Below are positions 49,136 through 52,833 of a stretch of 64,000 bases of DNA, piece after piece. Source of the stretch: an uncultured Chlorobiaceae bacterium (GTDB lineage: Bacteria > Bacteroidota > Chlorobiia > Chlorobiales > Chlorobiaceae). Under the pieces are notes generated by a model. The model was not told the origin of the DNA. It did not search any database and worked only from the letters and a program-made list of their open reading frames with translations. Numbering within the stretch: the first letter of the stretch is position 1; each line of letters starts with the position of its first letter. The position numbers and the translations under genes were made by a program. Where the stretch lies: positions 62,001 through 126,000 of the forward strand of contig CAIMPI010000015.1 in assembly GCA_903843305.1 (NCBI GenBank). The letters are read 5' to 3'.

Positions 49136-51367
49136 ATGAGATCGAATAACGCCGATATTCTTTTTGTTTTTCCACCAGCCCATGGAAACATAGGCGCATT
49201 CAAAACACATCTTGGAGTTGCTTACCTGCGTGCAGCCCTCAGCAAAGAGAGCATCTCGACGGCCCAATACCTGAACGAATACTCAGGAAACATCACAGCT
49301 ATTGCAACTGATATCCTTAAGTATCGACCACGTATTGTTGGTTTTACCGTCTACGATGCTAATTTTCTGCTCGCCCTTTCACTAACAAGGGCCATCAAAA
49401 AACTGCAACCCGATGTCAAGGTACTCTTCGGTGGACCCACTGCAACTTTTGGTGCTGCCAGGATACTGGAACATCATAGCGAAGTCGACATCTGCGTAAC
49501 AGGGGAAGCTGAGGAGACTGGCGCGAGGATTTTCAGTACATTACTTAACGACCATTCACTGACTGATACACAACCGGGCGTTACTTTTCGCCAAGGAAGC
49601 ACGATCGTCAGTAACAGTTTGCCGCCTTTGGTTGGCTGTGACTGTCCCGCTCAATCTGCACTGGATACAACCCCCTCGCCCTACCTTTCAGGTATTCTGA
49701 CTGACGGTCGCGCTGGTATCCTCACAGGACGAGGCTGTACGCACCATTGCCAGTATTGCGTCTTTGCATCTTTGGGAAGAAAAAAACTGCGTGTTCACTC
49801 AATCGAAAGGGTAATATCTGAACTTGAATATATCGCCGAACAGCAAAAACGGGCAGGCGAACACTCGATCGTTGCCATTCACGACGATGCCTTCACACTC
49901 TTACCAAAAAGAGCCAAGGAGTTGTGTCAGGCCATTGCCGACAAAAACCTTGGTCTTGTACTTTCATGTATAACCCGAGCCGATGCACTTGACGATGAAC
50001 TGCTGCGTCTCATGCGGGAAGCCGGTTTTATCAGCCTGGCTTTTGGATTAGAGAGCGCAGTACCATCCGTGTTGCGCGCTACTGGAAAAGTGAGAGATCC
50101 CGATTGGCCGGACACTGATCTTGAACCTGAACGACACTTCGTCGAGCAGGTTAGAACAAGTGTCATTGGAGCTAAAAAGCACGGATTTAATGTTGGCGTA
50201 AGCATCATTCTCGGACTGCCCACTGAAACTGCTGAAGACGGAGCAACAACACTCCGATTCGTCAAAGATATGCCCGTCGATTTCTACATGCACAACTTCC
50301 TGTGGGTTTTTCCGGGCACCCCATTATGGAAAACCCAGGATCGCTTCGGCATCAAGAGTACCCTCAATGACATGGGATTACCTACAACTTATGAATATGC
50401 CTACGATATCACAAAGCTCAGACCGCGCCCAAAGTGCTCACTGGAGCAGGAAGCGCATAGTATCAGATTATTGACTGCCAATGCTCTCTTTGCATGCAGT
50501 GCTGGTTCCACGAACAAAAATGAAAGTATCCACGATATCGTGATTCATGCTCCGGAACTCTCCATCGAAACAGCGGCATGGCTGTCAAAGATTTTAAGCA
50601 TCGGCGGTATGGTCATTCAGGTCTACCCGCCAATGAAACAAAGCGAAAAAGCACTAAGGCTTTACAATGACCGATACACATTCAATGATCAGATGGTACC
50701 GGCTCGTCACCATGTGCAACTGCTCACTAAAAAAACTGTTAACGAAGGTGATGAACGCTGGAGCATTGCCTGTTCTGGTGTCGACCTCTATACCCGACAC
50801 AAACCAGCTTTACTGTCTTTCATTTCATCCGAAAGCCCGGCACCACTGCTTGATTGGCTGGAAGGAACAGCTACTGCAAGCACATTCTACGACATTTCCG
50901 ACTACCTCAAGCAGCCCGATGAGTTGATTCAATTCCTCGACGAATCAGATGAAGAAAATATCGGACGGCGTCTTCGCAAGATGCGTATCCCACCAGATCT
51001 GAAATATCCGGGACGATGGATACAGGAAAAGGCTCCGTGCAGAATGCTTACACGTATTGAAATAGATGAAGAAGGAATTGTGCGGTGCTGCCGTCACGGA
51101 GAACCCCTCGGCAAGGCAGGAGACTCACGTGAAAATCTTCTACAACGCTATAAGGATTTAACCCGCGAAATCGCAGAACGACGCGGGTGCGATCATTGTG
51201 CAAACAAACACTGTTCCCGTTGTCCTTTTCCAGGAGTGGACGACCAGACCTATTGCTCAATCATGACAAAACAGGCACGCGTTTTGCGGTTACTCCAAGC
51301 AATTCGTATCTATGCACGGTTACCGTTAATGCTTGATCATCAGCGTGAACGAATGGGAAGCGATTAA
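49136..51367 (+). CDS. Cobalamin-binding-like radical SAM protein with C-terminal Cys cluster (candidate RiPP maturase)
   Basis: 743 residues. The N-terminal ~135 residues look like a B12-binding domain: DILFVFPPAHG, GVAYLRAAL, VGFTVYD and VLFGGPTATFG follow its strand-helix order, though the canonical His motif is absent. The radical SAM cluster is C201-x3-C205-x2-C208. After residue 480 comes a long region of unknown fold. The end has C635, C651-C652, C685-x2-C688, C693-x2-C696 and C707, arranged like a SPASM/auxiliary-cluster domain. Such enzymes modify peptides or methylate unactivated carbon. The next gene encodes a precursor-like protein, so I infer a peptide maturase; an unrelated B12-dependent methylase is the alternative. 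Confidence 0.75.
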   Translation: MRSNNADILFVFPPAHGNIGAFKTHLGVAYLRAALSKESISTAQYLNEYSGNITAIATDILKYRPRIVGFTVYDANFLLALSLTRAIKKLQPDVKVLFGGPTATFGAARILEHHSEVDICVTGEAEETGARIFSTLLNDHSLTDTQPGVTFRQGSTIVSNSLPPLVGCDCPAQSALDTTPSPYLSGILTDGRAGILTGRGCTHHCQYCVFASLGRKKLRVHSIERVISELEYIAEQQKRAGEHSIVAIHDDAFTLLPKRAKELCQAIADKNLGLVLSCITRADALDDELLRLMREAGFISLAFGLESAVPSVLRATGKVRDPDWPDTDLEPERHFVEQVRTSVIGAKKHGFNVGVSIILGLPTETAEDGATTLRFVKDMPVDFYMHNFLWVFPGTPLWKTQDRFGIKSTLNDMGLPTTYEYAYDITKLRPRPKCSLEQEAHSIRLLTANALFACSAGSTNKNESIHDIVIHAPELSIETAAWLSKILSIGGMVIQVYPPMKQSEKALRLYNDRYTFNDQMVPARHHVQLLTKKTVNEGDERWSIACSGVDLYTRHKPALLSFISSESPAPLLDWLEGTATASTFYDISDYLKQPDELIQFLDESDEENIGRRLRKMRIPPDLKYPGRWIQEKAPCRMLTRIEIDEEGIVRCCRHGEPLGKAGDSRENLLQRYKDLTREIAERRGCDHCANKHCSRCPFPGVDDQTYCSIMTKQARVLRLLQAIRIYARLPLMLDHQRERMGSD

Positions 51368-51525
51368 ACCTGAGAAGCCAAAAACCGAAGTAACTATACT
51401 GTATGAAGGAAAGAAAAGAGTTGATTGCCGAAAACGTGCAGGCAAAACCACGTCAGCTTTTTTAGCTGTTGCCACATGGTTAATAAAAAGAGAGCTGCCG
51501 AAAAAAACGCACGTCTTTAATAACC

Positions 51526-51535
51526 AGAGAGGAGG
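51526..51535 (+). promoter_or_regulatory. Strong ribosome binding site of the small protein gene
   Basis: AGAGAGGAGG lies six bases before the ATG at 51542. It is far stronger than most starts in this window and supports the small reading frame as a real gene expressed at high level. Confidence 0.7.
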
Positions 51536-51541
51536 ATAATT

Positions 51542-51871
51542 ATGCCAACGAAAGAAACACCCGAAACTTTGCTCAACAAACACTTAGGCCCAGAAGCGGC
51601 CAGTTCGTTGCTCAGCAAGATTGACAAGATGAGTGCTGCAGGTGAGCATGCTGACAAAATTGAAGAAGCAGCATCTAATGAAATTGCCTCCCATATCGAG
51701 AAGCAGGTAATCACAGCCCTCTCGGTCAAGATCGGACCTTTGGAGCCGATCAAGATCAAACCGATCCAGGTATCCATCAAGCCTGCCATTAAACCAACAC
51801 CGGCGATCAAGATCAATACCGGAGTTTCGGTGAAAGTTGGGCCCGCTTCTTTTGTCCGAGGCACGAAATAG
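51542..51871 (+). CDS. Candidate RiPP precursor peptide with a repetitive Lys/Ile/Val/Pro core
   Basis: 109 residues, no recognised family. Residues 1-~60 are helical, charged and leader-like. Residues 61-109 carry VKIGP (62-66), IKIKP (70-74), VSIKP (77-81), IKP (83-85), IKI (89-91) and VKVGP (97-101), so seven lysines each follow Ile or Val. There are no Cys and no Trp, and Ser/Thr are few, which excludes lanthipeptide-type rings; C-methylation, epimerisation or lysine crosslinking are compatible. It follows the radical SAM gene by 174 bases on the same strand. The radical SAM partner and strong ribosome site are the support; the RiPP reading is inference. Confidence 0.65.
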   Translation: MPTKETPETLLNKHLGPEAASSLLSKIDKMSAAGEHADKIEEAASNEIASHIEKQVITALSVKIGPLEPIKIKPIQVSIKPAIKPTPAIKINTGVSVKVGPASFVRGTK

Positions 51872-51978: not shown

Positions 51979-52833
51979 TCAAACAGGATCCTCCGGAGGA
52001 CTCCCCTCAAGCGCCCGATAAATCTGCGCCGGGCCATGCTGTACCGTGCGGACATAGTGCATCGCCGGCTTGCCGAACACCATGGCATAACCAAACAGAT
52101 GATCATCCGGAATACCAAGGCGGTAACGTGTCTCCGGGAGAATATCGTTCATCGCACACTTTGCCAGACCGTTCCAGAGAGTTCCGACACCATTAGCCTG
52201 AGCAAAAAGGTCAAAGCTGGAAAGCGCAATCACACAATCCTGCATGGGCGAGGCAACATGCTGTGGCGCCGAGACAATGAGCAGATGGGGGGCATCACGG
52301 AAAATAATGTCCACACGATGCTTATTCCAGATCGACACAAAGTTTGCAAAGAAGCCCATCCCCTCCGGCAAAGCATTGTTGTTAATCATCCGTGTCAAGC
52401 CAGCCATCACCTCATCGCGCAGTTGTACGACTTTGTCGTGACTGTCGAGCACCGTAAAACGAACCTGGCGGGAGTTCTCACCTGTCGGAGCCTGCCATGC
52501 GACATCAAGTAACCTCTGAAGGAGTGCTGGCTCAAGGCTGTCGGACTTAAAACGGCGCACTGAACGACGCCCCCTGATAAGCGTCTCAAGGGCATCCGGA
52601 TCAGGAAATGCATCCTTCAGCAGACGGCTGCCGGAAGCGTGCTGACCGAGAATGGAGACCGATCCTGTCGGGCAGATGGCAAGGCAATGCTCGCAGCGAT
52701 AACAGTTACTCTCCTTTTCCGAAGCAATGGCAGGATAACCATCCTCCCCCAAGCTGATAATCCGTGCCGGGCAGTCGATCAGACACGCACCGCAATGGGT
52801 GCATGTCTGCCGGTTGAGCATAAAATCTATCAT
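51979..52833 (-). CDS. Nitroreductase-family protein with N-terminal ferredoxin domain
   Basis: 284 residues. The first ~60 residues hold two [4Fe-4S] motifs: C11-x2-C14-x2-C17-x3-C21 and C44-x2-C47-x2-C50-x3-C54. The rest is an FMN-dependent nitroreductase fold with RRSVRRFKSDSLEP and WQAPTGENSRQVRF near the start. It probably accepts electrons from ferredoxin-type donors to reduce quinones, nitro compounds or flavins. An FMN-reductase gene lies 69 bases upstream on the same strand, a plausible redox pair. The convergent candidate precursor gene is separated by about 100 bases. Confidence 0.85.
   Translation of the reverse strand: MIDFMLNRQTCTHCGACLIDCPARIISLGEDGYPAIASEKESNCYRCEHCLAICPTGSVSILGQHASGSRLLKDAFPDPDALETLIRGRRSVRRFKSDSLEPALLQRLLDVAWQAPTGENSRQVRFTVLDSHDKVVQLRDEVMAGLTRMINNNALPEGMGFFANFVSIWNKHRVDIIFRDAPHLLIVSAPQHVASPMQDCVIALSSFDLFAQANGVGTLWNGLAKCAMNDILPETRYRLGIPDDHLFGYAMVFGKPAMHYVRTVQHGPAQIYRALEGSPPEDPV

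Follow-up and report, generated by a model that had tools for sequence, protein, structure and literature searches.

Cobalamin-dependent (B12-binding) radical SAM enzymes perform methylations and couplings that are otherwise hard, and ribosomal peptides are known substrates of only a few of them. One of these is ApyD (NF050148, aminopyruvatide) from the Apy cluster of B. thailandensis, a B12-binding radical SAM enzyme working on a ribosomal precursor. Its target is the penultimate Tyr of ApyA, which is methylated at the beta position. The enzyme has an RRE, and its partners are a P450, an MNIO and a methyltransferase (PMC10635010). PoyC from the polytheonamide pathway of the proteusins is a B12-binding radical SAM enzyme that methylates Val in a peptide (PMC5682303), and it has the unusual motif CX7CX2C. 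Proteusins have leaders of the nitrile-hydratase type. The B12-binding radical SAM enzymes covered by TIGR03975 (rSAM_ocin_1) are described as RiPP maturation radical SAM C-methyltransferases. A SPASM domain is present in many peptide-modifying radical SAM enzymes, including maturases of the AlbA, anSME and PqqE type, which show a C-terminal pattern of seven Cys and have peptide substrates (PMC5682303). None of the latter is known to contain a B12-binding domain.

In the window analysed here (the whole stretch of 64,000 nucleotides), a gene for a 743-aa B12-binding, radical SAM and SPASM-like protein (49136..51367) is followed after 174 nt by a gene for a 109-aa protein (51542..51871); both genes, with the domains and regions assigned to them below, are located on the forward strand. 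We interpret the pair as what is likely a minimal two-gene RiPP system, with the larger protein as proposed peptide maturase and the smaller one as proposed precursor, although the action of the enzyme on the small protein is inferred. This interpretation is based on the conserved pairing of the two genes, the separate evolution of leader and core, the contrast between an acidic, helical leader and a basic, disordered core, the matches of the enzyme to ApyD and TIGR03975, and its SPASM-like C-terminus. Of three features considered for a RiPP system, two are present, namely the conserved pairing and the leader/core organisation, while core modification together with leader removal is inferred.

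The enzyme carries a B12-binding domain (residues 24-130, 49205..49525; Pfam PF02310, E 1.2e-15) and a radical SAM core (residues 196-376, 49721..50263; Pfam PF04055, E 9.6e-19), both above the Pfam cut-off. The core contains a CX3CX2C motif with invariant cysteines at positions 201, 205 and 208, and the protein thereby meets the criteria for a cobalamin-dependent radical SAM enzyme. A middle domain (about residues 422-632, 50399..51031) has no Pfam match and is conserved in the close family; it is an inferred candidate for leader binding. Pfam gave no PqqD match that would indicate a PqqD-like RRE domain in the enzyme. Models for daptide RREs produced weak matches below cut-off in two related enzymes (L022 and L024, see below), and these were located on the SPASM-like part. 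A full-length AlphaFold model of the enzyme based on six sequences was discarded due to a pLDDT of 45.

The best-scoring curated model for the enzyme was that of ApyD (137 bits, residues 55-378). As the cut-off is 750 bits and only the B12-binding and radical SAM part was matched, membership is not met, and ApyD also differs in its accompanying enzymes mentioned above and in its RRE, a domain that was not recognised in the enzyme of the window. Likewise, the score for TIGR03975 (66.5 bits, residues 43-317) is below the cut-off of 281.85, and the C-terminal third of the protein remained unmatched. The CX3CX2C motif distinguishes the enzyme from PoyC, and the nitrile-hydratase-type leader model of proteusins was not matched by the window proteins in NCBIfam and Pfam.

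The C-terminal part of the enzyme contains eight cysteines (635, 651, 652, 685, 688, 693, 696 and 707). Between residues 635 and 707 (51038..51256), they form the pattern C-X11-G-X4-C ... C-X2-C-X4-C-X2-C-X10-C, which corresponds to the SPASM reference pattern (C-X9-15-G-X4-C ... C-X2-C-X5-C-X3-C ... C at the C-terminus) with slightly shorter spacings. A comparison of nine members, which included distant enzymes, revealed the spacing C-X2-C-X4/5-C-X2-C, and the last six of the seven pattern cysteines were invariant in all nine. In a profile-profile comparison, this region matched a set of 26 SPASM domains taken from sister genomes (92.8%, E 4e-7) with a score of 39.5, while the maximum was 20.2 in 60 column shuffles and 23.6 in 60 shuffles with fixed cysteines. 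The comparison set had been gathered with TIGR04085 and trimmed by a Cys-pattern expression, and hence the match is not evidence independent of the cysteine pattern. TIGR04085 itself stayed below its cut-off of 27 bits for the family (best value 16.3, in the distant member G642), Pfam detected no SPASM domain in the C-terminus, and the sequence of the SPASM-like region had no match in PDB. We regard the cysteine cluster as likely, but not certainly, a divergent SPASM domain. Besides this divergence, the enzyme differs from the AlbA, anSME and PqqE type in that the domain is joined to a B12-binding radical SAM part. In the open-access literature, to which our search was restricted, we did not come across any B12-radical-SAM enzyme described as having a SPASM domain; cobalamin and SPASM-cluster modules were found described only apart, and the words SPASM and auxiliary are absent from a 2025 review of the structures of Cbl-dependent radical SAM enzymes.

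The gene for the 109-aa protein is preceded by a ribosome-binding site with spacer (51525..51541); together with the start codon, this part reads AGAGAGGAGG-ATAATT-ATG. Residues 1-62 (51542..51727) form the proposed leader, which is acidic (+6/-10) and conserved in six loci, and residues 63-109 (51728..51868) the proposed core, which is basic (+9/-1), rich in Lys, Ile, Val and Pro and free of Cys. The border was drawn from conservation and not from a known cleavage site, and neither a double-glycine motif nor another recognisable cleavage site was found there. AlphaFold, run with six sequences, predicted three helices (residues 7-15, 17-32 and 37-64) with a pLDDT of about 80 and a disordered tail. 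Lys, Ile, Val and Pro account for 28 of the last 47 residues, whereas segments of this length from 42 other long ORFs of the window reach at most 23. The protein showed no family match in Pfam, NCBIfam, PADLOC or PDB. Known RiPP precursor and leader models were matched neither by the window protein (NCBIfam and Pfam) nor by any of the six members (NCBIfam). A fold search with the predicted model returned nothing meaningful (best E 3.2), and a search of the leader profile against PDB gave chance-level matches only. A Pfam match of the leader to FliG_N was rejected, as it was below cut-off (E 0.004) and covered 26 residues only.

A previous sequence-only reading of this locus had described most of these properties. 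The coordinates and lengths of both ORFs and the 174-nt gap held exactly, and the same is true for the strong ribosome site, the B12-binding-like N-terminus, the CX3CX2C motif at C201, C205 and C208, the eight C-terminal cysteines, the helical first half (about 64 residues by prediction), the Lys/Ile/Val/Pro core without Cys and the absence of an adjoining exporter or protease. It had stated that the core fits no nameable class, and no known RiPP class was matched here. The description of the core as a repeat held only in part, since the segment is of low complexity with alternating Ile and Val but contains no exact repeat.

Using the enzyme as query against 84,980 species genomes, we identified five close relatives with 57-62% identity. 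Three originate from Bryobacterales MAGs (L022, L023 and L026), one from a Terriglobia MAG (L025) and one from a Desulfobacterales MAG (L024). With the relatives belonging to Acidobacteriota and Desulfobacterota, the close family, window included, spans three phyla. In all five relatives, a small ORF starts 27-60 nt downstream of the enzyme gene, in most cases behind a clear Shine-Dalgarno sequence, and all five encoded proteins are homologous to that of the window (BLASTP E 9e-32 to 1e-7). The small gene occurs in one copy per genome. The arrangement of precursor beside maturase is thus conserved in 6/6 loci, and no enzyme of the close family (57% identity or more) without the small gene was seen in the genomes searched. 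The gene surroundings differ among the loci, except for L022 and L023, which represent one locus in two related genomes. The sequence-only reading had proposed to look for the two genes side by side in related genomes and to align the small proteins for a conserved leader and a variable core, and both were found. It had named two observations that would refute it, namely enzyme homologues occurring widely without the small gene and membership of the small protein in a known non-peptide family; the first was not seen in the close family, and no family match was obtained for the second. Its interpretation as a maturase with its peptide substrate is supported, while production and modification of a peptide remain unproven.

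The pairing bears on the possibility that the two genes are chance neighbours and that the small ORF is unrelated or non-coding. The only point in favour of this is the lack of a family for the small protein in the databases named above. It is refuted by the comparative data, as homologous ORFs are found at the equivalent position in the five other loci, with three phyla represented altogether, and the core regions of window and L024 show codon-position identities of 0.74/0.87/0.47, a coding substitution pattern. We consider this explanation all but excluded.

Within the genomes searched, the distribution of the pair is sporadic and rare. By profile, the close family was detected in 1/65 genomes of the genus of the window, 1/394 of its phylum and 3/257 Bryobacterales. 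Other B12-radical-SAM matches in the genus (mostly 22-33% identity) were not counted, as the family-specific C-terminal profile finds none. Plasmids contained only generic B12-radical-SAM enzymes with 30% identity or less, and viral contigs and plasmids contained no relatives of the small protein. In L025 (6928-9638), the 5' part of the enzyme gene is missing and a nitroreductase gene is joined to the remainder in another frame, either through a true deletion or through an artefactual join in the assembly. Next to the pair in L022, L023 and L026 and also in L037, there is a gene for a Ser/Thr kinase or of the TolB type, in differing orientations. This proximity is possibly due to chance, because such kinases are common in Acidobacteriota.

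The alignment of the six small proteins shows that leader and core evolve separately. While the first ~62 residues can be aligned in all of them, the remainder cannot. The enzymes of L022 and L023 are 86% identical and their leaders share 28/62 residues, and yet their cores are unalignable; conversely, window and L024 have enzymes with only 58% identity and leaders with 21/62 identical residues, but 33/47 core residues are identical. These contrasts indicate that selection acts on the tail as a module of its own, as on a RiPP core, and the criterion of a RiPP precursor with conserved leader and variable core is met. Three of the six cores are short and have no residue pattern in common with the Lys/Ile/Pro cores, and hence no common modification site is visible.

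An alternative explanation is that the 109-aa protein stays intact, is modified in its tail by the enzyme and works in the cell, for example with a basic tail binding metal, membrane or nucleic acid, instead of giving rise to a secreted peptide. This would be in line with the absence of an exporter or protease from the available contig sequence at any of the six loci, with the lack of a recognisable cleavage site and with the 70% identity of the window and L024 tails across phyla, which is expected of a conserved working segment. It is opposed by the complete change of the tail between L022 and L023 next to highly similar enzymes, as in diversifying RiPP cores, and by the lack of any common feature among the tails of L022, L023 and L025. 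Overall, we regard it as unlikely. Even less probable is that small molecules or lipids are the substrates of the enzyme, which would be a PhpK, HpnJ or BchE-like B12-radical-SAM methyltransferase or cyclase, and that the small gene encodes a partner or chaperone subunit. Its radical SAM core does match the PhpK, HpnJ and BchE models with 78-102 bits, and distant members have no obvious homologous small gene. However, a freely evolving C-terminal half beside an 86%-identical enzyme is not expected of a partner subunit, the SPASM-like domain points to a peptide substrate, and no other biosynthetic genes are linked. The RiPP reading itself is weakened by the lack of a linked exporter, protease or immunity gene, of a recognised RRE and of a common modification site, by the short MAG contigs on which most relatives are located, by the 5'-disrupted enzyme gene of L025, and by the distant enzymes of G642 and G986, which have no recognisable small partner.

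The pair is inserted in the window genome relative to a sister genome (G003). There, murB and the FMN reductase gene (74% and 83% identical to those of the window) are about 830 nt apart, whereas about 4 kb separate them in the window, containing the pair and a gene for a ferredoxin-nitroreductase. Other neighbours in the window encode a P-type ATPase and a LigB-type dioxygenase. As both genes flanking the pair are located on the opposite strand, it forms an isolated unit. Neither an exporter nor a protease gene adjoins it, and as far as the contigs reach, no linked exporter, protease or immunity gene was seen in the loci of the relatives. With a G+C content of 0.48-0.49, the pair does not stand out from the region. 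No Rfam element was detected near the pair, and promoter and terminator scans around it gave results not above chance. The ferredoxin-nitroreductase gene (51979-52833) within the same insert has a higher G+C content of 0.54, and its homologues are located elsewhere in the three sister genomes that were checked (G003, G006 and G019).

In the RiPP system proposed here, the enzyme would recognise a helical leader comprising residues 1 to ~62 of the precursor, and residues ~63-109 would be the core. The enzyme would be a cobalamin-dependent radical SAM maturase, the SPASM domain of which may carry one or two extra iron-sulfur clusters. It would bind the helical leader and then generate a 5'-deoxyadenosyl radical, and methylcobalamin would donate methyl groups to unactivated carbons in the side chains of core residues (Ile, Val, Pro or Lys). 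Given a RiPP system, we lean towards this methylation chemistry, which is inferred by analogy with ApyD and PoyC; the next option would be a cross-link or other radical modification, as the SPASM clusters leave an oxidative step open. Housekeeping proteins with genes elsewhere could take care of trimming and export, or the product may be kept on its leader in the cell. Leader binding, trimming, export and biological role are all inferred.

A bolder reading would be a new RiPP class, comprising an undescribed leader family and the first B12-radical-SAM maturase with SPASM, in which a complete two-gene island has moved between phyla and encodes a multiply modified Lys/Ile/Val/Pro peptide. Taken as a whole, we consider it slightly more probable that this reading fails than that it holds. 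What is new is the leader family together with the unusual architecture of the enzyme, and both remain within the known kind of radical SAM RiPPs; the claim of novelty in the sequence-only reading holds to this extent but not for B12-radical-SAM RiPP maturases as such. The L022 and L023 core variants beside near-identical enzymes suggest that the enzyme tolerates unrelated cores, and the pair is small enough to be expressed as a whole. If true, this would be a RiPP in what, as inferred from gene content, appears to be the genome of a green sulfur bacterium, for which we found no paper in the open-access literature searched.

Distant enzymes with the same layout were detected in G432 and G642 (Acidobacteriota search) and in G986 (Desulfobacterota search). 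Beside those of G642, where the contig is cut, and G986, no small gene homologous to that of the window could be recognised. In G986 (L039, 4209-8620), a second, distinct B12-radical-SAM-like gene immediately precedes that of the distant family enzyme. In G432 (L037, 5651-5794), the enzyme gene is closely preceded by an ORF of 47 aa, which has a strong ribosome site. This ORF shows no recognisable relatedness to the leader and is possibly a precursor with another leader type. Two sister genomes contain further related elements. In G020 (L040, 1004-1441), a related B12-radical-SAM gene persists as a decayed fragment, by eye nearest to the G986 type. In G013 (L042, 2910-6117), a 93-aa small ORF, a probable radical SAM gene and a B12-radical-SAM gene are arranged in a row, which may represent a different, RiPP-like cluster.
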